Below, one piece after another: positions 10,479 through 43,897 of a stretch of DNA of 64,000 nucleotides. The number at the start of each line of letters is the position of its first letter. Within the stretch, counting starts at the first letter, position 1. Under the pieces are notes generated by a model. It had not been told where the DNA came from. It was given only the letters and a program-made list of their open reading frames with translations, and ran no database searches. This DNA is from Paenibacillus tianmuensis (GTDB lineage: Bacteria; Bacillota; Bacilli; Paenibacillales; NBRC-103111), in assembly GCF_900100345.1 (NCBI RefSeq), contig NZ_FMTT01000013.1, forward strand, positions 62,001 through 126,000, given 5' to 3'. The translations under genes were made by a program, and so were the position numbers.

Positions 10479-10514
10479 AAGCAGCCTCCGCCCCATAACG
10501 TGAATTGGCCACAC

Positions 10515-11516
10515 TCAGCTCAGCAATTGCTCCTCCACCTGCTCGGCGAGCCGCAGCGCTTTTTCCTCCGGGTCCTCGACGCGCTTCAGCGCCTCTTCCC
10601 GGGTAATGATGCCCTGCCGCACCAGCAAGCTCATTTCAAAATCGTACGGATGAAACCGATGAACCTGCTTGTGCTTGACGATCCCCAGCGAATTCAACCG
10701 ACAATTCGTCGAATTGGGATCGACGTCCTCCGGCTTGGTCCATCCCAGCTCCCGGATCGTACGGTAAATTTCGTCCTCCTGGTACCCGATGATCGGGAAG
10801 GCGTTGATCGTATAAGGGAACGGATTCGTTTTGTATTCGTCCTTATCCAGCATGAGATACGTATACACGTCGTCCCCTACTCGCTCCGCGAGTGGCTTGA
10901 ACAAATGTTTCCGCAGCTCGTACGGAATTTTGTTGTCCTGAAAAATAATTTCGTTCTCGGATTGAATCAATTGCCCCGGGCTGTTGCCCAGCATCACCAT
11001 CGGAATTCCTTTTTCGATAGCGACCCGCAAGCACATGTTCGTCACAATGCGGATGCACGAGATGCAGATACCGCTGCCGAATTGCGTCAGATGGGTCGGA
11101 TAAACCTCGAGCGCCGAGCTTTGCAGAAAAATTTGCTTCATCAGGTCGTATCGGGGCCGGACAATCGTATGATCCACATTCAAGCGGTTCAGCACCTTGC
11201 GCATGTTCACAAACGAGTATTCCGACATGAAGCCGTTGTCGAGCGTCACAGCCAGCATGCGAAGCCCGTACTTTTCCTTGAGCGTATGAATCAGGAACGT
11301 GCTGTCCTTCCCTCCGCTGTAGGCAACCAGCGCATCGTACTTCCGGTTCTGCGCCTTGCATTCGCGAATGATTTCATCCAGCTTCGCCTGAAGCTTGGGG
11401 AGCGACGGAACAGGCTGTTTCCCGCTCTGCTTGCTGCAAAAGGAGCAGACGCCTTCGGAATCGAACGAGATTCCGGGGTAGGTTTCGGGCATCACGCATA
11501 AGGTGCACCGTTTCAC
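10515..11516 (-). CDS. PP-loop ATPase, N-acetyl-sugar amidotransferase-like (333 aa)
   Basis: An N-terminal Cys4 motif (C-TLC at residues 4-7, then C-SFC) is followed by the PP-loop YSGGKDST, which binds ATP and activates a carbonyl or carboxylate by adenylation. This arrangement resembles the WbpG/LegG-type amidotransferases that convert an amide to an amidine with ammonia from a separate glutaminase. No glutaminase domain is present here, so the AsnB two genes downstream could be the ammonia source; this is inference. The start is GTG at 11516, preceded by AAAGGGG at 9 bases. Sugar biosynthesis genes are absent around it, so a role in modifying the peptide or one of its building blocks is more likely than in surface polysaccharide. 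The aminomutase is translated 36 bases downstream. Confidence 0.8.
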   Translation of the reverse strand: MKRCTLCVMPETYPGISFDSEGVCSFCSKQSGKQPVPSLPKLQAKLDEIIRECKAQNRKYDALVAYSGGKDSTFLIHTLKEKYGLRMLAVTLDNGFMSEYSFVNMRKVLNRLNVDHTIVRPRYDLMKQIFLQSSALEVYPTHLTQFGSGICISCIRIVTNMCLRVAIEKGIPMVMLGNSPGQLIQSENEIIFQDNKIPYELRKHLFKPLAERVGDDVYTYLMLDKDEYKTNPFPYTINAFPIIGYQEDEIYRTIRELGWTKPEDVDPNSTNCRLNSLGIVKHKQVHRFHPYDFEMSLLVRQGIITREEALKRVEDPEEKALRLAEQVEEQLLS

Positions 11517-11537
11517 GGTTGGGTTCCCCTTTCTGAA

Positions 11538-13076
11538 TTAGCTTAATTCGGACCGGTTGATTTTGAGATTGGCGGTCTTGGGCAGCGGCTCGCGAAATTC
11601 GACGGTGTCGGGAATCATGTAATAAGGCAGAATCGATTTGCAGTAGCGGATGACCTCCTTCTCCGTCAGCGCGAGCCCCAGTTCCGTGACGACCAGCGCC
11701 TTCAAGCTGCTGCCTTTATCCAGATCATGCCTGCCGATCACCGCAGCCTCGATCACGCCGGGCATCCGGCACAAGCGCTCCTCCACTTCCTCCGGACTGA
11801 ACCGGAAGCCTTGCGATTTCAGCATCTTGTCTTTGCGCCCGACAAAATACAGGTAGCCTTCCTCGTCCAGCTTTCCGAGATCGCCGGTATGCAGCGCCCC
11901 GTTCCGGAATACTTCGCTCGTCTTCGCCGGATCGTTCCAATAGCCCGGAGACACGAACGCACCCCGGTGCACGATTTCGCCGATCTCGCCCGGACCGCGC
12001 AAGCGGCCGTCCTCGTCTTCGACGGTAATGTCCACGCCGGGCAAAGGCTTGCCCACCGACGGGATTTTGCGTTCGAACTCTTCGGGAAGCAGGCAAGTGG
12101 AACGAAAAGCTTCCGTTATGCCATACATCATATAAAATTTCGTCTGCGTCAGCAGGGCCTTTAATTTCATTAGCTCATCATGGGGAAAAGGTTCGCCGAT
12201 AATCGAGATGTATCTGAGGTGAGGGTAGTGGTGCTTCGCCAATGGAGAGTGTTTTTGGAGGAGCATCCTCCAAAGCGACGGTACGCCGTGGAAGCCGGTA
12301 ATCTGCTCGCGAAGCATCGTTTCCACGATATCATGAGGGAAAAGGGATTCTTGCAAAACTAAGGTTCCGCCAACATACAGCATGGTGAACAATTGACTGA
12401 GCGCCCCGTCGAACGAAAACGGGGTCACGCTGATCAGCCGGTCGGTGCGCCGGTTTTCCAAAACCTGCGCGGAAGTGATCGTCGCCTCGCTAAAAATACG
12501 ATGCGTCACCACAATGCCCTTCGGCTTTCCGGTGGAGCCGGAGGTGTACAGGATCGCTGCCGGATCGTCTTCATGCACGGCTTCTGTCTGAAGGCTGCCC
12601 GCGAAATCCGCATCCGCGCACTGTAAAATGTCTTCCAGCGCATATTCATGTTCGTACTCCGACCGATCTCTGCGCTGCGCCTGCGCCTGAGATAATCTTA
12701 CGAGCAGCTTGATGCTGCTTTCTTCCAGACCGGCTTGGTTCAGAACGCCGATTCTGCTGTCATGAACGAACAGCGCCCGCATCCCGCAGTTCGCGACAAT
12801 ATGACGAAGCTGCTCGCTTTTGACATGGGGATTGATATGAACGAACAGCGCCCCCATCTTCATCGCCGCCAGGATGACGACGATTTCTTCGATACATTTG
12901 GCCGAAAAGATGCCCAGCCGGTCGCCTTTGCGAATGCCTTGAGAGAGCAGAAATTGCGCGAGCCTGCCAGAAGCCTCGTCGGCTTCCCGAAAGGTCAATC
13001 GCCTGTGCTTCTCGATAAATGCTTCCTTCTGCGGATCGTCTGCCGCAGCCTTGGACAACATGTCGGGAATCAGCAT
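11538..13076 (-). CDS. Stand-alone adenylate-forming ligase (512 aa)
   Basis: A class I adenylate-forming enzyme with YTSGSTGKPKG (A3), FSFDGALSQ (A4), MMYGITEAF (A5), HTGDLGKLDEEG (A7), GRKDKMLKSQGFR (A8) and a C-terminal Lys in TANLKINR (A10). It activates a carboxylic or amino acid as the AMP ester. It is not fused to a carrier protein, but a small carrier protein is encoded only 10 bases upstream, so it most likely loads that protein. Pocket residues read by eye are D-G-S-H-S-I-M-R-S; they match no standard amino-acid code I know, and the Asp235 equivalent is retained, which fits an alpha- or beta-amino acid substrate. AAGG lies 7 bases before the ATG. It could be the activating enzyme for the beta-amino acid made by the aminomutase downstream. 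Confidence 0.88.
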   Translation of the reverse strand: MLIPDMLSKAAADDPQKEAFIEKHRRLTFREADEASGRLAQFLLSQGIRKGDRLGIFSAKCIEEIVVILAAMKMGALFVHINPHVKSEQLRHIVANCGMRALFVHDSRIGVLNQAGLEESSIKLLVRLSQAQAQRRDRSEYEHEYALEDILQCADADFAGSLQTEAVHEDDPAAILYTSGSTGKPKGIVVTHRIFSEATITSAQVLENRRTDRLISVTPFSFDGALSQLFTMLYVGGTLVLQESLFPHDIVETMLREQITGFHGVPSLWRMLLQKHSPLAKHHYPHLRYISIIGEPFPHDELMKLKALLTQTKFYMMYGITEAFRSTCLLPEEFERKIPSVGKPLPGVDITVEDEDGRLRGPGEIGEIVHRGAFVSPGYWNDPAKTSEVFRNGALHTGDLGKLDEEGYLYFVGRKDKMLKSQGFRFSPEEVEERLCRMPGVIEAAVIGRHDLDKGSSLKALVVTELGLALTEKEVIRYCKSILPYYMIPDTVEFREPLPKTANLKINRSELS

Positions 13077-13086
13077 ACGGCTACCT

Positions 13087-13320
13087 TCATGATCTTAACC
13101 GTTCGACCAGCGACACGACACCGTTCATCGTTCCGAGGCTTTCCATGTTCACGTCATCCTCGGAAATGCTCACACGAAACGTTTCTTCCAGAAAAGAAAT
13201 CAGATCCAGCACATCCAGCGAGGTCAGCAAGCCTGCTTCGAACAGATTCAGCGAAGGATCGGTTACTGGCTCGTGGGTCAGCTCGCGAATATAATCGGAA
13301 ATTTGTTCTCGTACCGTCAT
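13087..13320 (-). CDS. Small acyl/peptidyl carrier protein (77 aa)
   Basis: A free-standing carrier protein: four-helix length, acidic, with the phosphopantetheine serine in GLLTSLDVLDL. The residue before the Ser is Thr instead of the usual Asp. The longer frame begins 11 codons earlier, but GGGAGG lies 8 bases before the ATG at 13320, so that start is preferred (MTVREQISDY). The ligase begins 10 bases after its stop, which points to a ligase and carrier pair. Its position between the ETF genes and the ligase suggests that the tethered acyl group is a substrate of the dehydrogenase; this is inference. Confidence 0.85.
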   Translation of the reverse strand: MTVREQISDYIRELTHEPVTDPSLNLFEAGLLTSLDVLDLISFLEETFRVSISEDDVNMESLGTMNGVVSLVERLRS

Positions 13321-13377
13321 CGTCTGCGCCTCCCGCACTTTTCCATTTTCCATAAAGGTACAATCAGGTTTACTTGG

Positions 13378-14640
13378 CTATATCATTGCTTGCTGCTTCT
13401 CCACTTTCAACGTCTCGATAAAAGCCGGAATCACTTCCAACAGATCGCCTACGATCCCGTACGTGGCCAGATCGAAAATAGGCGCATTCGGATCGGAATT
13501 AACCGCGATGATCGTTTCCGCTTCATCCATCCCTACCGTATGCTGGAGCGCCCCGGAAATCCCACAGGCAAAATAGACGCGGGGCTTCACAATGCTTCCG
13601 GTTTGGCCGATCTGATGGGAAGGGTGAATCCAGCCCAGATCCACAGCGGCCCGAGTAGCTCCCACGCTGGCCCCTATCGCATCGGCGAATTCGTAGATGA
13701 GCGGCAGGTTTTCCGCCTTCTTGATCCCCCGCCCTACCGCGACAATCGTATCGGCCTGCAGCAGATTGGCGGGGTCCGCTCTCCCCCTCACAATTTCTAA
13801 AATTTCAAGCACTGTCTTGGACACGCGAATCTGCGAGCTCATATCCCTCACGATGCCGCTAGGGGTACTTACTTTGGCCGCCGATCGGAATACATGCTCC
13901 TTGATCGTCGCCATTTGCGGTCTTTGGTGCGGAATGACGATTTTTGCGACGATGCTTCCCCCGTAAGCGGGTCTCGTGACAACCAGGTGGCCCGTTTCCT
14001 TGTCAAGCGACAAGCTGATACAGTCGGCGCACAATCCGGTATCAAGCCTTGCGGCGACTCTCGGGAAGATCGAACGGCCGCGCCGGGTGCCGCTTCCGAG
14101 CACGATGGCCGGCTTCAGCTCGGCCAGCAGCTCGCTCATGCAGCGGGCTTCCGCATCCTCCGCGTAGGGCTGAAGATTCGGGCTGTCGACCAGCCATACC
14201 TCATCGACGCCCAGCTCCAGCAGCTCGCCGGTTAAATGGCCGATCTCGCTGCCGAGGAGTACAGCCGATACGGGCAGTCCCGTACCTTCGGCCAATTGCC
14301 TCGCGGCCCCGATCACCTCCGGCACCGATGGAACAAGCGCTCCGTCGGCATGCTCCGCATAGACGCAAATGCCGCTAAACGACGCCTCGTTACTCTTAAC
14401 GCCCGATTCGTCGGGGATGGACCAGTCGACCATGGAATCTCTGGGCATAAAGTTATCCGGCAAGGAATCGTCGACGATCGCATCCGCCGGGCATACCGGC
14501 ACGCAGGAGCCGCAAACGACGCACCGATCTTGGTCGACATTCGCCTGACCTTCCAGCAATCTCAAAGCTTCAAATGGACAAAGCTGCACACAGGTTCCGC
14601 ATCCGATGCAATTCGATTGGAGAATGCGAATTTGGCTCAT
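13378..14640 (-). CDS. etfA: Electron transfer flavoprotein alpha subunit with N-terminal ferredoxin
   Basis: The first 60 residues hold two 4Fe-4S motifs, CIGCGTCVQLCPF and CVVCGSCVPVCPA. The ETF alpha domain follows, with the FAD region around GRGIKKAENLPL and GQTGSIVKPRVYFACGISGALQH. It forms the flavin-binding heterodimer with EtfB and carries electrons to or from acyl-CoA dehydrogenases. A ferredoxin domain fused to EtfA is familiar from anaerobic clostridial reductase systems and unusual next to an NRPS. The ATG at 14640 overlaps the EtfB stop (ATGA) and has GGGAG 7 bases upstream; the longer frame is ignored. The likely partner is the dehydrogenase at 5671-6831, the only such enzyme seen in the operon. 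Confidence 0.92.
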   Translation of the reverse strand: MSQIRILQSNCIGCGTCVQLCPFEALRLLEGQANVDQDRCVVCGSCVPVCPADAIVDDSLPDNFMPRDSMVDWSIPDESGVKSNEASFSGICVYAEHADGALVPSVPEVIGAARQLAEGTGLPVSAVLLGSEIGHLTGELLELGVDEVWLVDSPNLQPYAEDAEARCMSELLAELKPAIVLGSGTRRGRSIFPRVAARLDTGLCADCISLSLDKETGHLVVTRPAYGGSIVAKIVIPHQRPQMATIKEHVFRSAAKVSTPSGIVRDMSSQIRVSKTVLEILEIVRGRADPANLLQADTIVAVGRGIKKAENLPLIYEFADAIGASVGATRAAVDLGWIHPSHQIGQTGSIVKPRVYFACGISGALQHTVGMDEAETIIAVNSDPNAPIFDLATYGIVGDLLEVIPAFIETLKVEKQQAMI

Positions 14641-15455
14641 GTGAAAACTCCCGTTCCTTTGTCGTCGCAGGCCCCGATTTTGGATAAAATACGGGCTGCG
14701 CATTGCCGGTTGTCCGCATAGCGGACGATTTCCCCGTTGGCTTTCCTCTCCTTTCCGGCCGGGTGGTAGACGCCGACGACCCGGGTAGGTGATCCGCTTA
14801 GACCGATCCGTCCGGGCTCAATCCCCAAATCGTCCGGACCCCAAACCGTGATTTGCGTGGTCTTTGCCTTCATGAGGCCCAGAACCGAAGGTATCCGCGG
14901 CTGATTGATATGCTTGCGGATGCACAACAGCGCGGGCAAGGGCAGCTTGATCGTGATTTCGCGGTCCTCCAGCTCCCGTTTGACCACCATTTCCCGGTCG
15001 TCATGCACAGAGCAGATTTCGCTTACGTTCGCCACATGAACGATGCCGAGCTGCTCTGCCAAGCTCGGGCCGACTTGGCCGGTCTCCCCGTCAAGCGACT
15101 GTTCGCCGGTCAGTACAAGCTGGAAGCCGCCCAGCTTGCGAATGCCTGCCGCCAGCGTGTACGAAGTGGTCAACGTATCCGCCCCGGCAAAATCCCGGCC
15201 CGACAGCAGTACGATCCGATCGACGCCCAAGGCAGCGATTTCGCGAAGCTGCTCTTGGCATTTTTCCGGTCCCATCGACAGGCACGTCACGGTACCTCCG
15301 TACCGGTCCTTCCATTTCAGCGCTTCTTCCACGGCATAATAATCGTTCGCGTTGTTGACTAACCGGCTCGCTTCCCGGCTTGAATCGCCCGTTTCTTTAC
15401 TTTCGTCCGCCATATCGTGCAGCATCACTTGTTTGACGCAGACTACAATGTTCAC
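14637..15455 (-). CDS. etfB: Electron transfer flavoprotein beta subunit
   Basis: 272 residues, typical EtfB length, starting MNIVVCVKQV and containing LTGEQSLDGETGQVGPSLAEQLG, the AMP/nucleotide-binding segment of the family. It pairs with the EtfA encoded next. The GTG start at 15455 has AAGGAGG 6 bases upstream. It is the first gene of the long operon: the 195 bases upstream hold no gene on this strand, and a terminator for the gene further upstream sits at about 15591-15622. Putting the redox pair first suggests that oxidation or reduction of a carrier-bound unit is central to the pathway. Confidence 0.92.
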   Translation of the reverse strand: MNIVVCVKQVMLHDMADESKETGDSSREASRLVNNANDYYAVEEALKWKDRYGGTVTCLSMGPEKCQEQLREIAALGVDRIVLLSGRDFAGADTLTTSYTLAAGIRKLGGFQLVLTGEQSLDGETGQVGPSLAEQLGIVHVANVSEICSVHDDREMVVKRELEDREITIKLPLPALLCIRKHINQPRIPSVLGLMKAKTTQITVWGPDDLGIEPGRIGLSGSPTRVVGVYHPAGKERKANGEIVRYADNRQCAARILSKIGACDDKGTGVFT

Positions 15456-17996: not shown

Positions 17997-19661
17997 TTAA
18001 AGCTGGCGAGTTAATATTGATGATATTACTTGAAGCTGTTCATCAAGCGAGTACGGGTCTTCAAAGGCGAAACGGTATGGATTGATAAAATAAACACGAC
18101 GATTCTTTACAGCAGGGAGGCTTTGCCAAATCCCGCTTTCCGTTAACGTGGAAGGGTCGCCGTAGACGGATATGAAAATATGATCACCTGCATATGCAGG
18201 CAAAGCTGAGAACGGGATTTTAATACTCAACGAAGCTTCATCAAGTTCCCTCCGCTGCAGGGGAGGAGCTTGCAGCTGCAAGGCTTGATAAAGGCTGAAG
18301 CTGCCGTAACCCGCATGCTGGCCCAATACGTACAGCTGCCCATTCAATAGCAGCAAATTCGTTACAAAGTACCCCAACCCGAGCTTACTCACGATTTGTG
18401 CCCGAGTTTGTTCAATTCGCCACTCGTAGTCTTCAATCCATTGCTCTGCCAAATCGGTTTTATTGAGAACGCCGCCTATCAATCGCAGCTTCTCCAAAGG
18501 ACTGGTACTTTGATAAGGAATCAGAAGCGTGGGTGCGATTTGCTCAAGCTGCTGATATTGGTGTTCATTTTGCGTTACAATCAGATCCGGCTGCAGTCCG
18601 GATACACGGGGCAAGCTGATGGGAAAGCCTTTCCCCAGATCGACAATGCCTTGCAAGCTGCTGCTGCTTTTCTCTGCTGCAGCTAACTCTTTTCTTAGCA
18701 TTTCCGTTCGGGCACCTACAGGAATCACGCCAAGCTTCAGCAACTGTCCCATATATTGATCGGCTACAATGCGCTGAGGGCTGGATGCGAGCGTGAAGCT
18801 TCGAATCAATCTCTGCTTGTTCTGTGCATATTGACGGGGCGATTGTCCGACGATCTGCTTGAAGCGGCGATTGAAATAGAACTCATCCCGGTAGCCGACA
18901 GTCTGGGCAATATAGGATAACTGGCCGCCGGCGAGCAGCAGTTTCTTGGCCTCTTGAATTCTCAAATCGGTCAAGTAACCGGACACGCTTCTATTGGTGA
19001 GCTTGCGAAACAGCTCGGTAAACTGTCTACGGCTAAGCCTAGCCTTAGCGGCCAGCTTATCGACTGTAATGTCTTCATGATAAGCCGCATGCATATAGTC
19101 GAGGGCATGTTCGACGGCCTTCTTGCTGTCGTGCTCCTTGGCACGGTGAAAGTTACGTTCTGTAAAAATGAACATCATCCATTCTTGAAAGTGCATGTGA
19201 TTGGCCAATTGCTGCAACGGATCTGAACTCCATCTATTTTTGCAAAGCTGCTCCAGTCCTCTTGAGAGGCGCTGCCAAGGCGCCTTCCATAAATCCTGGT
19301 GAGGCAGGAAAGAACCTGAGCCACCTAAATCGTCCAAATTGTCCCAATCGCCTGTACGCTGCATGGCATAGGAAATGATATAACAGGCAAAAGGGCGTGC
19401 AGTTGTATTGTTTAGTTGAATGTCGGCAGTTGAAACAAGGGAAAGCAGCTCCCCCGGATGCAGATCCGCCTTCATGTCATCTGCTTCAACGTGCAGGCTG
19501 CCCCTAATCATGACGATTAATGTTAAATAATTCAAAGAATATCGAAAGGAATTCATGGTTTGAGGTGAATCTGAATCGAACTGTTCTATATTAAGAAGTG
19601 CAAAGGAAATGGAACGAGGCATGCGCTCCGGCTGCTCCTGCAGTTTGCGCAATTCGATCAT
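17997..19661 (-). CDS. AraC-family regulator with fused siderophore-binding domain (Btr type, 554 aa)
   Basis: Three parts can be seen: an N-terminal sensor-like region (1-170); an AraC DNA-binding domain (about 185-285), with ITVDKLAAKARLSRRQFTELFRK and a second helix pair in ISYIAQTVGYRDEFYFNRRFKQ; and a C-terminal periplasmic-binding-protein-like domain (about 300-550). The last part closely resembles the lipoprotein encoded just upstream (DQYMGQLLKLGV and DPYSLDEQL match DQHMGHLLKLGV and DPYSLEAQL). In Bacillus subtilis, Btr is built this way and activates siderophore uptake on binding ferric bacillibactin. By analogy, this protein should sense the ligand of its neighbour. AAGGAAGG lies 6 bases before the ATG. 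Confidence 0.9.
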   Translation of the reverse strand: MIELRKLQEQPERMPRSISFALLNIEQFDSDSPQTMNSFRYSLNYLTLIVMIRGSLHVEADDMKADLHPGELLSLVSTADIQLNNTTARPFACYIISYAMQRTGDWDNLDDLGGSGSFLPHQDLWKAPWQRLSRGLEQLCKNRWSSDPLQQLANHMHFQEWMMFIFTERNFHRAKEHDSKKAVEHALDYMHAAYHEDITVDKLAAKARLSRRQFTELFRKLTNRSVSGYLTDLRIQEAKKLLLAGGQLSYIAQTVGYRDEFYFNRRFKQIVGQSPRQYAQNKQRLIRSFTLASSPQRIVADQYMGQLLKLGVIPVGARTEMLRKELAAAEKSSSSLQGIVDLGKGFPISLPRVSGLQPDLIVTQNEHQYQQLEQIAPTLLIPYQSTSPLEKLRLIGGVLNKTDLAEQWIEDYEWRIEQTRAQIVSKLGLGYFVTNLLLLNGQLYVLGQHAGYGSFSLYQALQLQAPPLQRRELDEASLSIKIPFSALPAYAGDHIFISVYGDPSTLTESGIWQSLPAVKNRRVYFINPYRFAFEDPYSLDEQLQVISSILTRQL

Positions 19662-19796
19662 AGGCTTCCTTCCTTTCTTTACTTGCTATTGCTGTGGCGC
19701 ACCAATGATCCAATGATACCTAAGAAGCCCGTTGTCCACAAGGTCGTGGAAACAGGCTTGAGAATTTATCTAATGCGAAGGTCTGCCGCGCTTAAG

Positions 19797-20753
19797 CTAA
19801 CGGGCTTTTGTCAGCAGGTTAACGATAATATTAAGCTGTGCTTCCAATGAGTAAGGATCGTCCATTGCGAAAATTTTCGAATCATAGAAATAGACTTGAT
19901 CGTTCATAACGGCCGGAATACTTTTCCAAAAATTACTGTCCAGCAATTCTTTGGCTTTATCCTCGTTCACAACTGTAATGAAAGCATGATCGCCCATGTA
20001 TTCAGGGACAGCTTCAAATGAAAGCTCGGCACTGCCCATCTCTTTATCGCGCAGCGTTTCAGCCTTGTCCGTCGGTTTCAGCTTAAGGTAATCGTAGATC
20101 ATGTACCCGCCATATGCCCCATTGGGACCGAAAACAAACACATTCTTGTCGAAAACGGCCATGACGGATACCGTTTGCCCCTCTTTTAATTTCCCGGAAG
20201 CGGCAATTTTCTGTTGTGCGTCTTTTAATTGGCCCTCAAATTCTTTGATCCACTTATTTGCTTCTGCGGTTTTGTCGAATAGCTCGGCAATTTTGAGCAG
20301 CTTGTCCATTGGTGTCGTATAGCTTTTGGACCAGTAAGGGATTCGGACCGTAGGTGCGATTTTACTATAAGACTCATGGTTATTTGGGAGTGCGCTAATG
20401 ATCAGGTCAGGCTCCAGCGAGGCAAGTTTCTCCAAATTAAGTGGAAATCCTCCCAAATTCTCAATCCCTTCTAATGCATCCCTCTCCAGGTTCGCGTATG
20501 GAATCCAGGCTTCCTTAAGCATATTCTCGCGAACGGCAATTGGTTTAACGCCCAGCTTTAGCAGGTGGCCCATATGCTGATCTGAGGCAACCCGCAGAGG
20601 CTGAACGGGAACCTCCGTCACGCCGGCTTCATGCTCAAAGGCACGTGTGGGCTGGATGGAATTGTTGGTTTGCTTGCTGCAGGCGGCTAGCAGTAATACA
20701 ATCACGATGGTTAGCAGGCATAGCTTTGCGGAAACGGTTTGGCTCCTTAACAA
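19797..20753 (-). CDS. Iron-siderophore ABC transporter substrate-binding lipoprotein
   Basis: 318 residues starting with a signal sequence and lipobox LLLAAC (Cys25), then a FecB/FhuD-type two-lobe binding protein: NLGGFPLNLEKLASLEPDLII is the usual first-lobe stretch. It should sit outside the membrane and hand a ferric siderophore to a permease. No permease or ATPase gene is next to it, so it must use one encoded elsewhere. The TTG start at 20753 has AAAGGGG 8 bases upstream; an ATG nearby is out of frame. A Fur box lies about 45 bases upstream, so iron should repress it. The Btr-like regulator follows on the same strand after 135 bases. Confidence 0.9.
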   Translation of the reverse strand: MLRSQTVSAKLCLLTIVIVLLLAACSKQTNNSIQPTRAFEHEAGVTEVPVQPLRVASDQHMGHLLKLGVKPIAVRENMLKEAWIPYANLERDALEGIENLGGFPLNLEKLASLEPDLIISALPNNHESYSKIAPTVRIPYWSKSYTTPMDKLLKIAELFDKTAEANKWIKEFEGQLKDAQQKIAASGKLKEGQTVSVMAVFDKNVFVFGPNGAYGGYMIYDYLKLKPTDKAETLRDKEMGSAELSFEAVPEYMGDHAFITVVNEDKAKELLDSNFWKSIPAVMNDQVYFYDSKIFAMDDPYSLEAQLNIIVNLLTKAR

Positions 20754-20921: not shown

Positions 20922-23900
20922 TTAGCGTACGGAGTCCGCTGCGAGAGTTTTATCCCGAACGATGTCTTGCAAGACGAGCCGGATCGCATGGACATTATGC
21001 TCAATATTGGCTGGTTCAAAAATGTCAAGGTGACCGCCAATCAGCGCGTACTCCACGACCTCTTCTGTCGTCGCCTCGTTCCAATCCTCGGCTCTGGCAG
21101 CTTCCATTTCCGTAATGAAAGCGTGCAGGTTGGCCCGAACCGCTCCGTCATTGATCAATTGACCGCTGTATGTGCCATATGCCAAAATTTTGCTCCTGGC
21201 CTTTTCCCAGTCGGCCCGATTGGCCAAAAAGGACGCGTTCCGTTCGGAGACGATTTCGAGCATGGCATCGACTCCCCGTTCCAGTTCTTCGCCGGAAAGT
21301 TTCTTCGTCCCATCCCGTCTATCGGCATCAAGCAACAAAATATCCGATACCGCATATCCCCTGCGCTCCATCGTCTTGGCGACCTGATAGGCTAAACTGC
21401 CGCCGAGCGAGTAGCCTAACAGCACATAAGGCGCTTCGCGCTGAACGCTCACAATCGCATCGACGTACCGGTTTAACAGCTCCTCCTCATCGCGCCACCC
21501 TTCGATGAAATCGAATGCGTAGACGACATATTGATCCTCCAGCATCCTGGCCATTTCGTTATACACAAGCCCGTAGCCTGCTGAGGGAGGGAAGCAGAAG
21601 ACGTTCATCCGTCCCCGCTCGTTCAGCTTCATCGGCCCGTCGCCGTCATCCTGGACTTGCCCGGAAGAGAGCAGCGCCGCCATTTCTTCAATCGTCGGCG
21701 AGGCAATGACGGCACGCAGAGACAGCTCTGCCCCCATGACGGTGTTGACCTTTTCGGTCAACTGCATCGCTTTGATCGAATGACCGCCAAGCTCGAAGAA
21801 ACGATTCCTCACTCCGATGCGCGGAGCTCCTAACACCTCTTGCCACAGCGCCGCCAGCTTCGCTTCAACCGGCGTTCGCGGCGCCACGTACTCCGCTAAA
21901 GCGTTCGCGGCATCTTCCGTAGAAGATGAATGCACGATCGCTCCTTGCAGCAGCTCAGCTTCCGTACCAACCAAGCCCGCCAGGCACTGCTCCTCTTCGG
22001 CGGGGGACAGCAGCTGAAGCTCCTGCACCCGAACGTCCGGATTCGCCGCGAGTTGTTTCAAGATCCGCATCCAGTGCCCTTGCAGGCGTTCCATCACTTC
22101 GCGTTCATATACCTGGGCGTTGTAATCGAATCGGATGCGCATGTCATTGCCCGGCTGCATGATGACAGTCAGATCATAGCTCGTCTGTCCCTCGGTCCGG
22201 AACCCGCTCATTTCCAGCCCTGCCGCCTTTGCCGCCGCTTCGGCCGCGACCGAAGACGGGCTATCGGTTTCGAATACGAGAATGTGGTTAATTAGCTGCT
22301 GTTTTGGAGCGCTAAGCGCTTGGATTTCATACAGCGGATGCATAGCGTGCTTTTCGGATGACAACGCCTGCTCCTGAACGCTTCGCATGACGTCTGCCAC
22401 CGTTGCCCCGGCCCCGCTGCGGATACGGACCGGGATCGTATTGCTGCGCACCCCGATCATCGTTTCCATGCCCGGCACAAGCGCCGGTCTGACGGGCACG
22501 ACGGTTCCAAATACAACGTCGTCCGTGCCGTTATAGGCTTGCAGCAGCAGTCCCCACGCCGTTTGGAGCAGCGTATTTACCGTCACCTGATGCTGCTTTG
22601 CCGTATTGCGCAGTTCCCGGGTCAGCCGTTTTCCCAAGCTGCTTGTTAGCCGCTCGGCCGCACACCCTGCCCCTTGCTGTCCTTGGGCCTGAACCCGCGG
22701 CGGCACGGCTTGATGGCGGTAGCCCGCCAAATAATGGCTCCAGTAAGCGGATGCCGCGGCAAGATCCTGCCCCTCCAGCCATTCGATATACCGCCTGTAT
22801 GGCTTGACCGCGCCCAGTTCCGGCCGGGCTTGCTTCCGGTAGGCGGAGTACACCGCGAACACCTCTTCGATGATCCGCCCCGTATCCCGGCCATCCATCA
22901 CGATCTGATGGAAGCTCCACAAGAAACGGTACGTTTCGTCGCCGGTTCGCAGAATCGACACGCGCAGCAACGCTTCTTCGCTTAGCTCGAAGCCGCGGAG
23001 CTTGTCTGTCTTCGTAAGCGCACGGATATGCGCCTCTTGCTCGCTTTCCTTCCACCCCCTCACGTCTTCATAAACAAAGCCGGCCGGTTTGTTGCGGTAC
23101 ACCACCTGCAAAGGTTGACCGTTCCATCCGCTATAGAAGTTCGTCCGCAGCGCGTCATGACGCTGCACCACGACGTCCAAACTTTGCTTGAACGCTCTGA
23201 TGTCCAAGCTTCCGCACAAGGTAAACGCCGTTTGTTCGAAGTATGCTTCCGATTCCGGGTTCAGCAGTCGGTGGTACAGCATCCCTTGCTGCAAGGGCGT
23301 TAACGCGTACACGCTTTCGATCTCACCGATGCGCCGCAGCCGTTCCGTCACGGCAAGTCCTTTGAAAACGACGTCGCTTGGCGTCAACTCCGGCCTCTCT
23401 TTTGCCACGCAGTGCGCGATGATGTCCTGAAGGCTGGCATGTAGCAACCCAGCCAGCCGCTCCATCGTTTCCCGCCGGTACTGCTTGCCGCTGTAGCTGA
23501 CCGTAAGCGCCAGTTCTCCGCCTGCGATACTGCCGCTAATATCCAGCGCATGGGACCTTTCGGTTTGCCCGCTAATCTCCGAGCCGCATGCAAAAGGCGA
23601 TACTTGCAGCGCATTTTGAGTTAAATCTTGATCGAACTGGCCCAAATAGTTAAAGCTGATTTCCGGCTTTGCTGCGTAGCGGGCGTCCTCGGACGCTTCG
23701 GACAAGTATTTCAGTATGCCGTAGCCGATTCCTTTGTTCGGAATTTGTCGCAAGCTGTCTTTCACCCGTTTGATCCGGTAAGCGAGCGTATCGGAATCGC
23801 CCGGACCGCCGCCTGCTCCCATCTCCAGCACCACAGGATACTCGCTCGTAAACCAGCCGACGGTGCGCGCGATGTCGATATCCGGCAGGACGGCCTCTCT

Positions 23901-26900
23901 TCCGTGTCCTTCCAGACCGACCCATACCCGCTCGATTCCCGTCCAACGGTACACCGCCATGCCCAGCGCGGTCAGCAGCAGGTCGTTGATGTCAGTGTTG
24001 TAGGCATGGTGCGCCTGCTTCAGCAGCTGCTCCGTTTCCTCCCGCGTCCACTGCACCGTCACCGTTTTGCTGTCCCGCATGAGCCCGTATGCTTGCTCCT
24101 GCCCGGCTTGTTCAACATCTCGGGGGAGCGGCTTGCTTTCAGACTGTTCGAGCTGCTGCCAATACGCCCGCTCCGCCTCCAACGCCGGAATGTTCGCATA
24201 ACCCGCGAGCTGCTCCGCCCACGTCTGGAACGCATCCGTCTTGTCCGGAAGCCGGATCGCCTGTCCGCTTACGGCTTGCTCGTAGCCGTAGGCCAAATCT
24301 TCAAGCAAAATGCGCCATGATACCCCGTCAACGACCAGATGGTGAATCGCGATCAGCAGATGGTCCCCATCCGCGCAGCGGAACAGCCCCAGCTTGATAA
24401 GCGGCCCCGTACTGAGCTCGATGCTACTCTGGATCTCATTCGCTTTTGCTTCAATCGCTTGCGCGACGTTGTCGGCTGCCTTCTGGAAGTCCATGACTTC
24501 TAAAGTGTACAGCTCGCCTTCGTCGATGCCGCGAATCCAGGCCGCATAACCGCCTTCCGTCTGTCGAAATACCGTGCGCAGCGCGTCATGATGCTCCGCC
24601 AGTTTCCGCACCGCCTTCCGAAGCGCCGCTTCATCGTAGCCTTGCTCCCGGTACAGCATAACGGCTTGGTTATAGTGGTGCGGCGCAGCATTGTTTTGCC
24701 GGAAAAACCATGCTTGAATCGGTGTCAGCTTCGCCCAGCCCTTCACTTCCCCTTGGTCCGCCATACGGGTAATCGGCTTGACATGCGCGCTCAGCTCCGC
24801 AATCGCAGGGTAAGCAAACAAATGTCTCATTTCCACCTTGTACCCGGCTTGATGCAGCTTCGCCGAAACTTGAATCGCTTTGATCGAGTCGCCTCCCAGC
24901 GCAAAGAAGCGATCATTCACGCCGACCTTCTCGATCCCGAGTACCGTCTGCCAGACGGAAGCCAGCGCTTGCTCCACGGCCGTGCATGGAGCGACATAGT
25001 CCGTGTCCGCAGCCATGCTTTCCTTCGGAGCAGGAAGCGCTTTGCGGTCTACCTTCCCGTTTGGCGTCAGCGGCAGCTGCGGAAGGGGCACGAAATAGGA
25101 TGGAATCATGTACTCGGGCAGCGTTTGCGACAACGCCTTCCGTAGTTCGCCTATCGCCAGCTCGCGATCCGACACCACATACGCGCACAGCTGCTTTTGT
25201 CCGGTTTCGTCCTCCCGTGCGATGACAACTGCTTCCTGCACGGATTCCGTTTTCAGCAGCTGCACTTCCACCTCGCCCAGCTCGATCCGGTAGCCGCGGA
25301 TTTTCACCTGATCGTCGAGCCGCCCCAAATATTCGATGTTGCCATCCGGCAGCCATCTCGCCGCATCGCCCGTCCGGTACATCCGCCTGCCCGGCTCGAA
25401 CGGGTCATATACAAATTTCTCCGCGGTCAGCTCTGGACGGTTCAGGTACCCCCGCGCCACCCCGCGTCCGCCGATATACAACTCGCCCGGCACACCAGCC
25501 GGCTGTAGCGCCATGGCTGCGCTTAAAATATACATTCTCACGCCCGCGTATGGCTTGCCGATCGGCAAACTCCGGTATTCATACGGATATGGATGCGATC
25601 CGACGTCCTCCGTCTGCTGAACATAATAACTTGAATCGACGCACGCTTCCGTTACCCCGTAGCTGTTTACGATCCGCATCGATGCACCGAACCGGTCGTT
25701 TAATTGCTGAAAATCGCCTACCGGACATTGATCCGAGCCGACAATGAGCGTTTTCAGGAAGCCGATATCCCGCCCGTGCTCATACACGTCATTCATCAGC
25801 GGAATGACAAGCGCCGGGGTCGCATCGAACATCGTGACGCGGTGCTGCTGCAGCAGCCCGTAAATCGCCTCCGGGTCGTGCCGAGCGTAGCTTGGGCATA
25901 CGATGAGCTGGCCGCCATTCAGCAGTGACCGCACGATATCGGCCGTAAACACGTCGAATGAAAAGCTTGCCCACTGCAATAGCCGTACCGGTTCCTCCCG
26001 CAGCCGATACTCCTGCTTCCATGCTTCGGACAAAGCGATGACCTGCCGGTGCTCGATCATCACGCCCTTCGGTTTCCCCGTCGTTCCCGACGTATAGATG
26101 ACGTAGGCCAGATGATGCGGCTGCGCTGTGGGCACCAGGTTTGTTCCGTCGGCATCATAGGCTTCGGAAGCATCCAGAAACAACACTTTCTCCGCGGCAT
26201 CCGCCGCACGTTCCTGCAAGCGGCGATGCGTTAGCAGCAGCTGTGCCCCCGAATCGTCCAGCATGTAGCGAACCCGCTCTTCGGGGTAGTCCGGATCGAT
26301 CGGCACATAAGCGGCTCCCGCCTTCAAAATCCCGAACATCCCGATGGCCATCGCAAGCGAGCGCTCGGCCATGATGCCGACGGTCTGGTCCGGCTGCACC
26401 CCTTTGGCCCGCAAGGTGCGCGCAAGCCGATTCGCCTGCTCGTTCAGCTCGCGGTAAGTGAGCCGCTCGTCCTCGCAAATGACCGCCACTTGATCCGGCG
26501 TCCGCTCCGCCTCTTCCTCCAACAGCTGATGGATCGTCTTCTCCTGCCAGTCGCAAGATACGGAGCCGACTCCGCTATCGTCGGGTGGGCCCGTTAGCAG
26601 CGCCTTTTCCTCCGGCGTGACGATCTCGAAAGACGACAGCTTCGCCTCAGGAGCCGCCAAAATACCGTCGATGAGCTGCATGAAGTGACCGGCCATTCTC
26701 CGGACCGTATCCACGCTGTACAGCGAGCTAGCGTATTCGATGCTGCTCGTAAGCGTCCCTGCCTCATCTACCGTTATTTGGAAGCTAAGGTCGAACTTCG
26801 CCGTCTTCGACTCGATTTCATATGGCTTGAGTTCCAACCCATGTACGGTATGTTGTTCCGCCACCCCATGCTGCATGTCAAACATCGTGTCGAACAGCGC

Positions 26901-29900
26901 ATGACGGCTCAAATCCCGCGTAACGCCTACTTTCTCGACCAGCGCTTCAAACGGGTAGTCCTGATGCTCGAACGCTTGGAGCGTCATGCCCTTGACTTCC
27001 TGCAAGTAATCCAGAAACGTCTTCTCCCCGACCGGATAGCCGCGCAGCGCCAGCGTCCCGACGAACATGCCGATCAGTCCGTCCACATCCGCATGCGTTC
27101 GACCCGCCACCGGGGTGCCCACCACGATATCTTCCTGCCCCGTGTATTTGTACAGCAGCGCCGTGTAAGCCGCCAGCAGCACCATATACAAGGTCGTGCC
27201 GGTTGCGCTCGCAAGCTGCCGCAGCGCGTCGCTTCGTTGCGAACCTAGCGCGAAGGGAACAAGCCCTCCCTCAAAGCGCTGCACGGCCGGACGCGCGTAA
27301 TCCGTCGGCATATCCAGCACAGGGAGTTTGCCCTGGAACACATTCAGCCAGTACGCTTCCTGACTGCTCATTCGCTGCCCGGACAGCTCCGCCTGCTGCC
27401 ACGTCGCGTAATCCTTGTATTGGATGCGCAGCGGCGGCAGCTTTTCCCCGCCGTATAACCGGCCGAACTCGCTTATTAAAATGCCCATCGACACGCCATC
27501 CGAGACGATATGATGCATATCGAACAGCAGCAGATAACGTTCCGGCTCCTGATTCACACCAGGCTTGTCCGGATCCAACCGAATCAAGCCCACCCGCAAT
27601 AGCGGTGGCTGCCGCAAATCGAACTGCCGAACAAATTGGCGGATGCTATCCAGCGTATCCGTTTCCCCACCGTTGCTCTCGGCGTAGTCCACGGCAAACT
27701 CCACTTCGGATTCGGAGTACACCCGCTGGAACGGTTCGCCGTCTACCAGCTCAAAGCCAGTCCGCAGCGTCTCGTGACGCCGGATGAGCCCACGGAACGC
27801 CTCCTCGAACCGTTCCCGGTCCAGCGCGCCTTCAAGCAGCATTACCCCCGGCATGTTGTAGCTCGTTTCCCCGCCTTCGAACTGCTGCAAGACGTACAGC
27901 CGCTTCTGTGCCGAAGATACGGGATAATGCGACTGCACGGGGGCAACCGGTATGCCTGCAAATGTCTGCTGCCGGAGCCCTTCGATGACAGCCGCGAGCT
28001 GCTCCATGGTCGGGGCGGCGAACACGTCCTGCAGCGGCACATTTACATGCATTTCTTTTTGGATATGGGCCGCCAGCCTCATCGCTCGAAGCGAGTGACC
28101 GCCGAGCTCGAAGAAGTTATCCCTGATCCCGACGCTCGGCACCCCAAGCACCTCTTGCCACAGCTCCGCCAGCTTCGCTTCCACCGGCGTCCCCGGAGCA
28201 GCGTACTCTGCGCCTGTAGGCACGATACCCTCCGGCGCAGGCAGCGCTTGGCGGTCGATTTTGCCGTTCGGCGTCAGCGGCATCTCCTCGAGCTGAACAA
28301 AGAAAGCCGGCACCATATAGCCCGGAAGCTCCCGCGCCAGCTCGCTGCGCAGCGCCCCGGCCGCCTGCTCCCCATCAGCGGTAAAATAGGCGCACAAATA
28401 CGTTTGCCCGGTTTCGTCCGTGCGTGCCAGAACGATCGCCTCTTGTACCGCTGCCACGTTCAGCAGCTGCGCTTCAATCTCGCCGAGCTCGATGCGATAG
28501 CCGCGAATTTTGACCTGATGATCGATCCGGCCCAAATATTCGATGCTGCCGTCCGGCAGCCAGCGGGCCAAATCGCCCGTCCGGTACATCCACTGTTCAG
28601 GGGCAAACGGAACCGGCATGAATTTGTCCGCCGTCAAGTCTGGGCGGTTCAGATAGCCTCTGGCCAGACCGATACCGCTGACACAAAGCTCTCCGGCCAC
28701 GCCGATCGGAGCAAGCGCGTTATGCGCACTCAGAATGAAGACTTGATGATTCGGGATCGGCCGGCCGATGGGCACCGTCTTTTCCATCGGCGTATGGTCT
28801 GTATAAGCCCACGCGGTCGAGCAAATGGAGTCCTCGGTCGGGCCGTAGTTGTTAAAATAGCGAACGTGGTCCTTCCACTGCTGAACAAGCTCGCCGGAGG
28901 ATGCGGAACCCGCCGTAATGAGCGTTTTCAATTCGGGCATATGCTCGGGATTCAAGTAAACGGCATAGGTCGGAGGCAAAGTCGCGACCGTTATCCCGTG
29001 ATCGTGAACATATTGCTCAAACAGACGGTAATCCGCTATGACAGAAGCATCGGGCACATACAGCGCTGCTCCGGTCAATAAGCTCATAATCAACTCCGAG
29101 CACCAAGCATCGAACGAAAAGCTCGCAAACTGCACGATGCGATCCCGCTCGCTAATTTGCAAAGTGTGCTCGCAAAACAGCTTGAAGTTGCACACGCCTT
29201 GATGCTCAACCAGCACACCTTTCGGCTTGCCGGTCGTACCTGACGTATAGATGACATAAGCCAGCTGATGCGGATCGACAACCCCCCCGGGACTAGACCC
29301 GTCGCCGCTATAGCTCCGCTCGTCGTCCAGCAGAAGCAGCTCGCCGCCGTACGCCATGCGATCCCGCAAATGCGATTGCGTCAGCAGCAGCCGTACGCCG
29401 GAGTCGCCGAGCATGTAGCGGATGCGTTCCTCCGGGTATTCGGGATCGACCGGAACGTATGCGCCGCCCGCTTTCATCACGCCGAGTACGGCGGTAACCA
29501 TGTCCAGCGACCGCTCGGTCATAATGGCAACTAGTTGCTCGGCCTCCATCCCTTTGGCCAAAAGCGTGCGCGCCAGCCGGTTCGCCCGCTCGTCCAGCTC
29601 CCGGTACGTAAGCTGCCGGTCTTCAAACACAACCGCAACCTGCTCCGGCGTCAGCGCCGCTTGCCGTTCGAACAAACCGTGGATCGTCATGTCCGCAGGG
29701 TATGGCAGCGCCGTTTCGTTGAACGTCTCCAAAATTTGCGTCCGCTCATGGACAGTAAGGATGTTCAAGGACGCAAGCCTCGCTTCGGGGGTCTGAATGA
29801 TTTCTTCGATCAACTGAATAAAATGCTGCGCCATGCGCGAGATCGTTTCCCGTTTGAACAGACGGTCGCCATATTCGATGCTGAACGCAATGCCGCCCGC

Positions 29901-32900: not shown

Positions 32901-35900
32901 AACGCGCTGAAGCTGCCGCTTTTCCGCTTCCGTCAGCATATCGATATCGGAGAGCCGCAGTTCTTGACAATTAATGACGCCCTCCAGCACGCGGACGTAA
33001 TGCTCCGCCATCCGCCGGATCGTTTCCGGCTTGAACAGCTTCGTCGCATATTCCCAGGTGCAGGAAAGTCCTGCTTTGTCCGCCGTCACGCTTAAGGAGA
33101 AGTCAAATTTCGACACGCCGGGGTTGAACTCTTCCGATTCGAACGTCAGACCGCCGGCTTCGAGCGTGTGCACCGCTTCATTTTGCAGCATAAACATCGT
33201 GTCGAAAATCGGGTTGCGGCTCAAATCCCGCACGAATCCGAGCTTCTCCGTCAGCTCGTCAAACGGATAATCCTGATGCTCGAAGGCGAGCAGCTCCTGC
33301 CGCTTGACGTCCTGTAAAAATTCACCAAACGTTTGTTCTCGTTTCGGTCGATTCCGCATGGCGAGCGTACCGACGAACATCCCGATCACGGCTTCCGTGT
33401 CCGCATGTCTTCTGCCGGATACCGGCGTTCCGACGATGATATCGTCTTGTCCCGTATAGTTGGCGAGCAGGACACTGTACGCCGCCAGCAGCACCATATA
33501 CAGCGTCGTTCCCGACTCCTGCGCCAGCTTGTACAGCGATGCCGTCAGCCCGGGGTCCAGCTTCAGAGAAAAGGTGTCTCCTTCAAAGCTTTGCAACTGC
33601 GGGCGCGGATAATCGGTCGGCATGTTCAGCACCGGAAGCTCGCCGGCAAGCTCGCTTAACCAATACGTTTCCTGCTGCTCAAAAGCGCCCTCGGCGATCC
33701 GGTTCTGCTGCCAGACGGCATAGTCTTTGTAATGCACGTTCCTTGGCGCCAACTGCCTTCCCTGATACGTTTGAAGCAGCTCGTCCAGCAGCACGGCCAT
33801 CGAAAATCCGTCAGCCACGGCATGATGCATATCGACCAAAAGCGTAAAGCTGTCAGCTGCCAATTGCAGCAGCTTGGCGCGGAACAGCGGAGCCAGGCCG
33901 AGATCGAACGGTCGGACAAACCGCGCTCGCGCTTCATCCGCCTCTTCTTCGCTAATCCGTGTCACCTCGACGTTCAGCACAGCGTCCGGGCTAATTTTCT
34001 GAACGATCTCGCCCTCCTCCAGCGCAAAATAAGTGCGCAGCGACTCATGCCTCCCGAATACGTGCCGGAGCGCCTCGATCAAACGCGCCGTATCCAGCTC
34101 CCCTTCGATCTTAAGCTGCCCGGATATGTTATATGTCGTGCTGTCGCCTTGCTGCTGCAGCACGTACATGCGCTTTTGCGAAGACGACGCAGGGTACGCC
34201 TCCCGGCGATCCACCGGCACAATCGGCGTGTAGTCGCCCTTTTCCCCGCCCCGGATGTATTGGGCCAGCTCGTCTATCGTTTGAAGCTCGAACAAGTGAG
34301 CTAGCGGAATTTGTACATGGAATTCTTTATTCACTCTGGACAAAATCACCGTTGCTTTCAGGGAGTCGCCGCCTAGCTGGAAAAAGTTGTCGCGACGGCC
34401 CACGTTCGCCGCCCCAAGCACTTCCTTCCAGATGCGGACCAGCGTCTCCTCCGTAGCGTCTCCGCCGTGAACATCGGGGGCTGCGGTGAAGCCGCCTCCT
34501 TCCCCGGGCTCCGGCAGCTGCGACCAGTCCGGCTCTCCGCTTGGCATAAGCGGGAGGCTCGCCATCTTGACCACGTAGCGGGGCTGCGTGTAATCCGGGA
34601 GCGCTGCGCTCATCGCTTGCTTGAGCTCGGACTCCTCCCAAGGGTGCGATAGATCGGCAACGATGTATGCGGTCAAATCGGCAGTGGTGTCCGTATCTGC
34701 TTCGGAGCGAACGGTGAAGGCGCAAGTTTGAAGACCGAATGTACGACGTACGTGCTCCTCCAGCTGCTGGAGGTTGACTTGATGTCCGCGAAGCCGGACA
34801 AAACGGGACGTTTTCCCGACAGGCGTCAGCTTTCCGTCTTCCGCACAATGCACCCATTCCCCGGTGCGAAGAAAGGAGTCCCGGGAGTTCCGGGAATTCC
34901 CATTCTTAGGCCGCACGATATACAGCTCCCCCATCGTTTCTGACGGAACCGGCTGAAGGTATGTATCCAGCACGCAGGGATAGGTGCCTTCCGCATCGGC
35001 AAGGGCGGCCCACGCCGCCCATTTTTGCGCGATTTCTCCGGCGCTCAGTAAGGCAAGCCCAGAGAGGCGCAGCGTCTGCTCCTGCCCGATCGCAAGCAGC
35101 AAATGCACATAGTACCGCGCCCATATCCGGATCGTTTCGGCCGGGAACAAATCGGCGCTGTAATCGAAATTGAGCCGCAGCTCGCTTCCGATCTCGATCG
35201 CATTCAGGAAAAGCTCGTATTTGCTGTACGAAATCGGGTTCGGCAGCAGCTCCGCATCCAATCCGTGGAAGCGGAGCCTCGGCAGACGGTCCATATTGAA
35301 GACGGTCGTGATCGCCGGCAAATGCCCGAGTCCCCTTTCCGCCAAGGCGGCAAAGCTGTAGGGCTGAAACGGTTCGATCTCGTTCATTCCGTTCTTGACC
35401 GCTTGCGCATATTCGGCAAACGTAAGCTCCGGCTTGACCTCGCTCGCTACCGGCAGCAGATTGACGCAGTTGCCGATGAGCGAGAAAGCCTCCATCTGCG
35501 CTTGTCCGGCCGTCGGTATGCCTACCGTGATCTGCCGCAGCCCGGTCAGCCGGTGCAAAAACAGCTGGAACGCGGACAGCAGCGTCACGAACAAGCTGCT
35601 GCCCTGCCGCATGCTGGCCGCTTTCAACTCCTTCGCAAGCCGGCTGTCCAGCATAACCGTATGCCGGCCTCCGCGGGAGGTCGGCACCGACGTTCCCCGC
35701 CGGAGCGACGGCAGCTCCAGCACCGGAAGCCGTCTGTCGGACAAAGCCGCCCAGTACGCTGCGGCTTCCCGGCTTTCCGGCTGCTCAAGCTTATGCCGCT
35801 GCCAAGCGGCATAGTCCCGGAAAGCGGCCGGGGCAGGGAGCGCCCAGCTCTCCTGTCGTACGAGCGCGGAGTAAATGCGCTCCAGCTCTTGGATGAACAC

Positions 35901-42375: not shown

Positions 42376-43551
42376 TTAAGCGCGCTCTTTTCCTTCCGGC
42401 CCCCGCTTGGTTTGCAGCACAAGGCACATGAAATCCAAAGCTTCCTTTCTTTGCTCACGGGCCTGAGCTCCTGTGATCCTGCTTTCTTTCGCGCTTTGCA
42501 GCATTTCCTTCAGCTTGCGCACAGGCTGGACGACGCCCGCTTGGTATTCCTCCTCGTTCCAATTGGCATTAGGGGCAGCTACGGCCTCTGACAGACAGCC
42601 GGCAATAAAATCGTGAAGCGGAACCTCCCGGGCCAAGCGCTCTGCCTCCTGCTCCCGCTCGAAAACAAACGTCCGCGGCTTGTCCGTCATATCATTCGCC
42701 AAATTTTTCAAGACGGAACGGGGACCTAATTCGACGGCCCACTCTACCTTCCGCTCCTTCAAATAACGCATCGATTGCAGCCACATGACCGGATGCGTCA
42801 TCTGTAAAATCAAGCCGTCCCGGATTTGCTCCGCATTAGCGTAAGGCAGCGCCGTCACGTTGGATATAACCGGCCATTGGCTTTCGCGGAACGTATACTT
42901 CCGCAGGATGTCGGATAGACGGTCCGCAGCTTGTGACATCAGCGGACTGTGAAACGGGCCGCTGACCTGCAAACGGGTAACTTGAGCGCCTCTTAGCTCC
43001 GCTGCAATCGTTACCCGGGCCAGGGCTGCCCGATGACCCGACAGCACGTACTGGCTCTCGGAATTGCAGCAGGCGATGACAACAGGCTGTTCAGACGACG
43101 AATGCTTGCCGCACAATGCCTCCAGCGCCTCAAGCTCCACGCCCCGCACGGCGGCCATTTCGCCCAGACCTGCATCGGCGGCCTCCTGCATCACGATCCC
43201 CCGCTGCTGCACCAGACGCAAGGCGTCCGCAAACGAAAGAACGCCGCTGCTCACCAGCGCGGTGTATTCCCCCAGACTATGTCCGGCGGAGAACCGGGGA
43301 ACGATGCCAATCTCTTGCCTGTACTGTTCCAAGGCCATGACGCTGACCGTCAGCAGAGCCGGCTGCGCATACGCCGTTCTCGACAGCTGCTCGGCGCTGC
43401 CTTCAGTGCATATCGATTTCAAATCATACCCCAGGATATCATTCGCTTCCTCGAACAATTGGTCGGCACCTTGAAATCTCTTGGACCAGACCTTGCCCAT
43501 TCCTTCATATTGTGATCCTTGACCTGGAAATAATAAGGCGATACGCTTCAT
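42376..43551 (-). CDS. Trans-acting malonyl-CoA:ACP transacylase (FenF/ItuD type, 391 aa)
   Basis: LLFPGQGSQYEGMG at the N-terminus, the nucleophile Ser92 in GHSLGE, and the catalytic His in GPFHSPLM mark a FabD-family malonyltransferase. The C-terminal tail of about 80 residues beyond the FabD core is typical of FenF/ItuD/BmyD. The synthase downstream has a KS with no AT, so this enzyme should load malonate onto its ACP for the single chain extension that makes the beta-keto (then beta-amino) fatty acid. The start at 43551 has AAAGGGG 6 bases upstream; the longer frame by nine codons is disfavoured. It is the first gene of the two-gene synthase operon. Confidence 0.93.
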   Translation of the reverse strand: MKRIALLFPGQGSQYEGMGKVWSKRFQGADQLFEEANDILGYDLKSICTEGSAEQLSRTAYAQPALLTVSVMALEQYRQEIGIVPRFSAGHSLGEYTALVSSGVLSFADALRLVQQRGIVMQEAADAGLGEMAAVRGVELEALEALCGKHSSSEQPVVIACCNSESQYVLSGHRAALARVTIAAELRGAQVTRLQVSGPFHSPLMSQAADRLSDILRKYTFRESQWPVISNVTALPYANAEQIRDGLILQMTHPVMWLQSMRYLKERKVEWAVELGPRSVLKNLANDMTDKPRTFVFEREQEAERLAREVPLHDFIAGCLSEAVAAPNANWNEEEYQAGVVQPVRKLKEMLQSAKESRITGAQAREQRKEALDFMCLVLQTKRGPEGKERA

Positions 43552-43897
43552 GCCTAACCCCTTTCCGAGCACCGACATATCAAAATAACGGATGATGTTT
43601 GCACAGAAACGTTAACAAAATGGTATGATGAGAGATTTACAAATGGAAACAAAATAGGAAATGCGGTATGAAAAGTCACGGAAGCTGAGGAGTAAGTTTT
43701 GGAGAATGCATGCTTTCAAGTCAAAATCCATTAAAAGGTATTATGACTTTATACATGAAATTATTAAATATATTACATATTTTATTGCAGAGATGTCAAC
43801 CCAATTAATTACAAATTAAGAATTAATTCATATTTAATTAAACTATCTGGGTATCGACCTTATTGGCAGCCAGCTGCAAAGGAGCGACGCAACGGAA
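43552..43897 (-). promoter_or_regulatory. AT-rich region upstream of the lipopeptide operon
   Basis: About 345 bases without a gene, much richer in A+T than its flanks, especially 43740-43855. It must hold the promoter of the malonyltransferase-synthase operon. Several TTAATT/TTAAATA stretches are present, but I cannot name a -35/-10 pair with confidence. A GTTAAC sequence near 43613 resembles one near 15553 ahead of the etfB operon; this may be chance. Confidence 0.5.

Follow-up and report, generated by a model that had tools for sequence, protein, structure and literature searches.

The synthetase described here ends in a condensation domain, a carrier domain and a thioesterase, which raises the question of whether its last module adds a residue to the lipopeptide. 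We analysed a stretch of 64,000 nucleotides from Paenibacillus tianmuensis (the window), in which the synthetase is encoded as a single protein containing three complete A domains. Pfam and our own profiles gave the domain order FAAL-ACP-KS-ACP-AMT-C1-(A remnant)-T1-C2-A2-T2-C3-A3-T3-C4-A4-T4-E-C5-T5-TE (Table 1). The A fragment between C1 and T1 covers positions 377-486 of the 487 of our own A profile. C5 matches the PF00668 profile with an E value of 2.4e-105. An earlier note had stated that no A domain follows C5, and this was borne out: Pfam shows Condensation, PP-binding and Thioesterase there with zero AMP-binding, and our own profiles show nothing but a linker of about 42 aa from C5 to T5. 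By comparison, A precedes T in 5/5 of the other T-TE loci that were annotated.

The second peculiarity of C5 lies in its catalytic motif. Positions 22890-22913 read TTC CAT CAG ATC GTG ATG GAT GGC on the minus strand, giving FHQIVMDG (residues 6484-6491 of the 7146-aa ORF), with the second His of HHxxxDG replaced by Gln6486 (codon CAG, 22905-22907). The HQIVMDG motif and its Gln had been described correctly in the earlier note, the translation agrees with both, and Gln is found in 6/6 genomes; its placing at 22895-22921 was off by about 5-11 bases. Elsewhere in the protein, C1-C4 and E all have HHxxxDG intact.

Table 1. Positions of the synthetase, its relevant domains and neighbouring genes (window numbering unless a locus is named).
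Feature	Position	Strand	Remarks and basis
Whole synthetase, FAAL-PKS-NRPS, 7146 aa	20922..42362	-	Pfam and custom domain profiles
TE release domain, GYSLGG and GGHLDIFEP	20973..21602	-	Pfam; motifs kept in 6/6
T5 carrier domain, GGHS, intact	21669..21860	-	Pfam, invariant columns
C5-T5 linker at expected A site, about 42 aa	21861..21986	-	without A remnant; fastest-evolving part
C5, DCL-type condensation domain, active site eroded	21987..23318	-	residues 6349-6792; PF00668, tree, invariant columns, AF2 fold
Altered C5 catalytic motif HQIVMDG	22890..22910	-	residues 6485-6491; sequence and ortholog comparison
E epimerization domain preceding C5, HHLVVDG intact	23409..24734	-	Pfam and orthologs
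T4 carrier domain	24783..24971	-	Pfam
A4, last adenylation domain	25053..26522	-	Pfam
Module-1 stretch with C-terminal A-subdomain remnant	34473..35015	-	own domain profiles
Trans-acting malonyl transacylase (AT)	42376..43578	-	directly upstream of synthetase; adjacent in 6/6
Standalone A gene in second cluster	11538-13076		
P450 gene downstream of synthetase	L031:12194-13600		one ortholog locus

The close relatives identified in a genome scan were P. tyrfis MSt1, P. tyrfis YSS-72.2.G2 and P. ehimensis NBRC 15659, all three at 80-87% over the final 847 aa; another four relatives were distant. When 25 genomes of the genus were searched with C5, orthologs (78-84%) were found in five besides the window's own, six genomes in total; genomes of other genera in the family gave zero matches at E<=1e-172 (6 of 104 genomes matched). 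All six carry E-C5-T5-TE without A, and all six have Gln for the second His of C5, encoded by CAG in each. The position of the first His is less constant (H, D, H, H, H, C), and DG is kept in 6/6, as is HH in C1-C4 and E. A sequencing error or private mutation at Gln6486 is ruled out by the five orthologs with Gln at the same codon. The worn state of C5 in related species therefore marks an old and tolerated change, perhaps a useful one, that affects how the chain gets to the release step. Judged from these sequences, both the partner A of C5 and its active site for peptide formation were lost before the lineages of the six genomes split. The synthetase frame is open in 5/6 genomes (7133-7165 aa); in P. 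ehimensis NBRC 15659 (L008, about 6476-6554) two overlapping frames were seen in C4, where the motif reads HHIVSDA, a break that is either a pseudogene or an assembly error. A4 is swapped for a different A domain in 2/6 genomes (G014 and G004, loci L034-L037; minimum identity 0.56), so that species are likely to differ in the last residue.

The state of C5 was compared with that of 90 other C domains, taken from the six synthetases and ten iturin/paenilipoheptin-type relatives after C/E hits under 300 aa had been dropped. The second His is present in 90/90 of them (16/16 C domains after AMT, 43/43 after T and 31/31 after E or at a protein start) versus 0/6 in C5, so that its loss is not chance variation. 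DCL-type domains had been proposed in the earlier note as the comparison to make, and a tree of 60 rows shows C5 to descend from them: all six C5 fall in a single clade (SH-aLRT 100) within the DCL domains of E-C-A modules, with the E-C-A domain of genome G008 (L018) as nearest sister. C5 also follows an E domain, as DCL domains do. By phylogeny, then, it is a normal DCL domain.

The loss exceeds one His. Invariant columns were defined as at least 95% conserved over 44 DCL domains (G084_27365 was left out of the DCL set), and 12-16 of these 62 columns deviate per C5 member, 12 being changed in all six. Held-out DCL rows show 0-5 deviations per row, in a test that took 31 of the 44 rows in 21 groups, the other 13 not being held out. 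The changes lie mostly in the catalytic motif stretches, which presumably line the tunnel: HHxxMDGWC became [HDC]QxxxDGRD (H to Q, and W to R and C to D after DG), SG is replaced by PV, LFI by V with varied residues beside it, and FEN by FET (N to T). On the alignment, the DCL active site is dismantled on a retained scaffold.

That scaffold and the right-hand neighbours, T5 and TE, are preserved while the catalytic centre is not. The AF2 model of C5-T5 (14 rows) has a mean pLDDT of 77.6, and its C5 part superimposes on the C domain of surfactin SrfA-C (8f7g) with TMt 0.94, rmsd 2.1 and Z 43.9 (43-44). It matches the tyrocidine and SrfA-C condensation domains at 2.0-2.4 Å, and none of the 50 structure matches listed for it has a fold outside the C/E/Cy/X superfamily. 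The predicted fold of C5 is thus intact. T5 shows 0 deviations at 10 T-invariant columns in 6/6 genomes, and TE keeps its motifs in 6/6 as well as its triad. The dN/dS values (NG86, 15 pairs) are 0.274 for C5, 0.238, 0.208, 0.186 and 0.267 for C1-C4, 0.208 for E, 0.333 for T5, 0.180 for TE and 0.629 for the C5-T5 linker; all domains other than the linker fall within 0.09-0.33, and C5 is, by these ratios, under purifying selection. The word relic, used for C5 in the earlier note, fits the erosion of the active site beyond one His; it does not fit a domain kept in frame at a dN/dS of 0.27 in six genomes.

We think it reasonably probable that module 5 adds no residue, that the chain reaches T5-TE without amide formation and that a beta-amino-acyl tripeptide is released. 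We infer this, and the path of the chain, from the ancient loss, the eroded site, the fold, T5 and TE, and the lack of a dedicated local loading partner. The chain would consist of a beta-amino fatty acyl group and three residues, the last of them epimerized by E on T4. It would then move from T4 to the T5-TE end, either relayed to T5 with C5 as docking scaffold or taken directly by TE, and TE would release the beta-amino-acyl tripeptide. The intact T5 and TE fit with C5 passing the chain from T4 to T5, and relay without residue addition is supported by the A-less C-T relays accepted in the iturin-type family (ItuA C1). HH is kept in all sixteen of the A-less C1 relays (ten in relatives, six in orthologs), as well as in an A-less C-T-E module in the third protein of genome G019 (L095-L096 joined, from 23680), and relay alone therefore does not explain the loss of His. 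The dN/dS values of T5 and C5 are somewhat above those of most neighbours, which slow decay would fit too. If module 5 adds nothing, a count of modules would overestimate the residues of this lipopeptide by one.

The main rival to a module that adds no residue is loading of T5 in trans by an A domain elsewhere, in the manner of SyrB1/SyrC, with C5 forming the amide with Gln replacing His. We regard this as unlikely, and as the main rival because trans-loading of a C-T-TE end and an active HQ variant are both in print. SyrE, of syringomycin, ends in C-T-TE without A, as the window synthetase does, and is loaded by SyrB1 through SyrC (PMC8949500). The ORF18 C domain of streptothricin has HQ for HH, as C5 has, and according to the accessible part of a review (PMC11546977) this HQxxxDM domain is active and its Gln matters; ORF18 is a separate C-PCP protein and is likened to C5 by description. 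The same part of the review mentions second-His mutants of C domains that stay active, so the statement in the earlier note that this residue is essential went too far; the review treats what this His does in HHxxxDG as still debated. Trans-loading is also favoured by the intact T5 and by the linkage of a standalone A gene to the synthetase: it lies with an ACP about 8-28 kb away in 6/6 genomes (ACP checked in the window only). However, C5 is altered at 12 DCL-invariant columns and not at one alone, and the standalone A belongs to a separate cluster that is 90-99% identical in three genomes (G022, G016 and G010), in none of which an intact C5 synthetase was found. The standalone A therefore does not need the synthetase, and we rejected it as a dedicated partner of T5, though it may still serve as a loader. 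The flanks shared by the six genomes hold AT, a LysR-type regulator (four genomes, by eye) and ordinary genes, and no A, T or shuttle gene that could load T5 was found in them. AT and the synthetase are the only biosynthetic unit conserved around the locus, which is unlike SyrE with its dedicated SyrB1/SyrC loaders.

The second cluster, at 2-15455 of the window, encodes NRPS modules, an AsnB-like protein, an acyl-CoA dehydrogenase, a KamA-like radical SAM protein, a WbuX-like protein, the standalone A, an ACP and an ETF-like protein (the last assigned by eye); the motifs in its two C domains are LHHIISDE and LHHIISDA. Between it and the synthetase, the region 17997-20753 encodes a fusion of an AraC regulator with a periplasmic-binding domain, together with a binding lipoprotein, neither of which was found in the ortholog flanks compared. 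In G022 the second cluster and the far-side genes are in place, with AT and the synthetase reduced to short scraps (L104-L106 joined, 27017-27375). What is left at the deletion scar in G016 (L120:9997-10948) is the beginning of AT, a fragment of FAAL and the T5-TE end (83%).

It is quite unlikely, in our estimate, that C5 is a repurposed transacylase, the true role of its new site (Q...DGRD) being thiol-to-thiol transfer of the peptidyl chain between T4 and T5. C5-T5 would on that account be a new functional C subtype, a DCL domain rebuilt around Q...DGRD that takes a D-peptidyl chain, with a second, never-aminoacylated carrier as a waiting station for TE (for cyclization or the joining of two chains) and a terminal relay matching C1-T1 at the beginning of the enzyme; we offer this with considerable reserve. 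The retained fold and T5 speak for it, as does the A-less C-T relay at the opposite end of the same enzyme family, and one new residue is found in all six genomes at 10/12 changed columns. However, 60% (267 of 444) of all C5 columns are invariant anyway, and 10/12 is not clearly above this background (about 0.08 by hand); selection for the shared new residues is therefore not shown. The Q, R and D codons have zero synonymous variation over the six genomes, so that selection on these residues cannot be shown either, and the C1 relays keep HH.

X domains sit between T and TE, whereas C5 precedes T5, and it is very improbable that C5 acts as X domains do in glycopeptide synthetases, by bringing a P450 or another tailoring enzyme to the peptide bound on T. 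The C5 model does match the teicoplanin X domain (4tx2; Z 33.7, rmsd 3.1 over 419), with the C fold and a lost HH in both. Some orthologs have a P450 gene downstream, but among the C5 genomes it is full-length in only 3/6; one has a 169-aa piece of it, and in two, the window included, a search at E<=1e-80 did not find it. It is also full-length in G022, which lost the synthetase. The excerpted text of PMC11546977 describes X domains as inactivated C-type domains of the terminal module that carry HRxxxDD and recruit P450s; C5 has no such motif, with QxxxDGRD in 6/6, and the inconsistency of the P450 over the six genomes disfavours such recruitment. Finally, we give hardly any credence to the idea that the synthetase end is just degenerating and the pathway being lost. 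The scraps in G016 and G022 and the frame break in P. ehimensis could be cited for it; against it stand purifying selection over all domains but the linker, intact catalytic motifs elsewhere, open frames in the other five genomes and the exchange of A4 from genome to genome, as would be seen in an active pathway that diversifies.

The code fragments of the A domains were read by script and completed by eye, using code positions that we take to be those of GrsA. The specificity codes found no useful match in the literature, the portion of PMC12283262 at hand included, and we claim no substrates. Among the open-licence PMC papers listed for degenerate or inactive condensation domains, for HQxxxDG and for lipopeptides of these species, the entries showed no description of the window synthetase. 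In P. tyrfis YSS-72.2.G2 the region is listed as 'Paenilipoheptin 7%' (Table 3 of PMC10847853, seen in extract), and the available sections of the paenilarvins paper (PMC5070912) contain nothing on domain order. The C5 described here is a naturally disarmed DCL domain between a working E, T and TE, and it offers a test of the C domain as scaffold or transacylase without bond making.

Among known systems, the closest by sequence are the paenilipoheptin-type synthetases of Paenibacillus, at 68-70% over AMT+C1 to nine loci, a label inferred from the architecture given in the accessible part of PMC11959601, with seven of the nine loci annotated and the comparison covering the start and reaching no TE. 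They have the same module-1 A remnant as the window synthetase and differ from it in being divided over several proteins and in having an inactive E behind module 2. The E ending the first protein of the paenilipoheptin-like clusters (L077, L079, L081, L083, L085, L087, L089 and L091) has lost HH in 8/8 (DP, DT, HR or HP), in line with the DPxxxD reported for the paenilipoheptin E domain in that part of PMC11959601. The A remnant in module 1 is found in nine of the ten iturin/paenilipoheptin-type relatives, the exception being G445, and T1 comes next in all. In the section of PMC11751314 at hand, C1 of ItuA is described as the domain that loads the first PCP with the beta-amino acyl chain. The A-less C1-T1 unit is thus normal for synthetases of these types and is not part of the oddity.

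With ItuA/MycA of iturin and mycosubtilin (Bacillus) the window synthetase shares the FAAL-ACP-KS-ACP-AMT start, the trans malonyl transacylase, the A-less C1-T1 relay and an E-C-...-T-TE end; AMT+C1 is 49% identical to that of G445, which we took as iturin-type from its architecture. Unlike the iturin and paenilipoheptin types, it is not a multi-protein heptapeptide line. Iturin is made by three large proteins from seven residues, with C(HH)-A-T-TE as the last module (G445), whereas the window synthetase is a single protein with three complete A domains, in which the last C domain is eroded and its A domain is missing.
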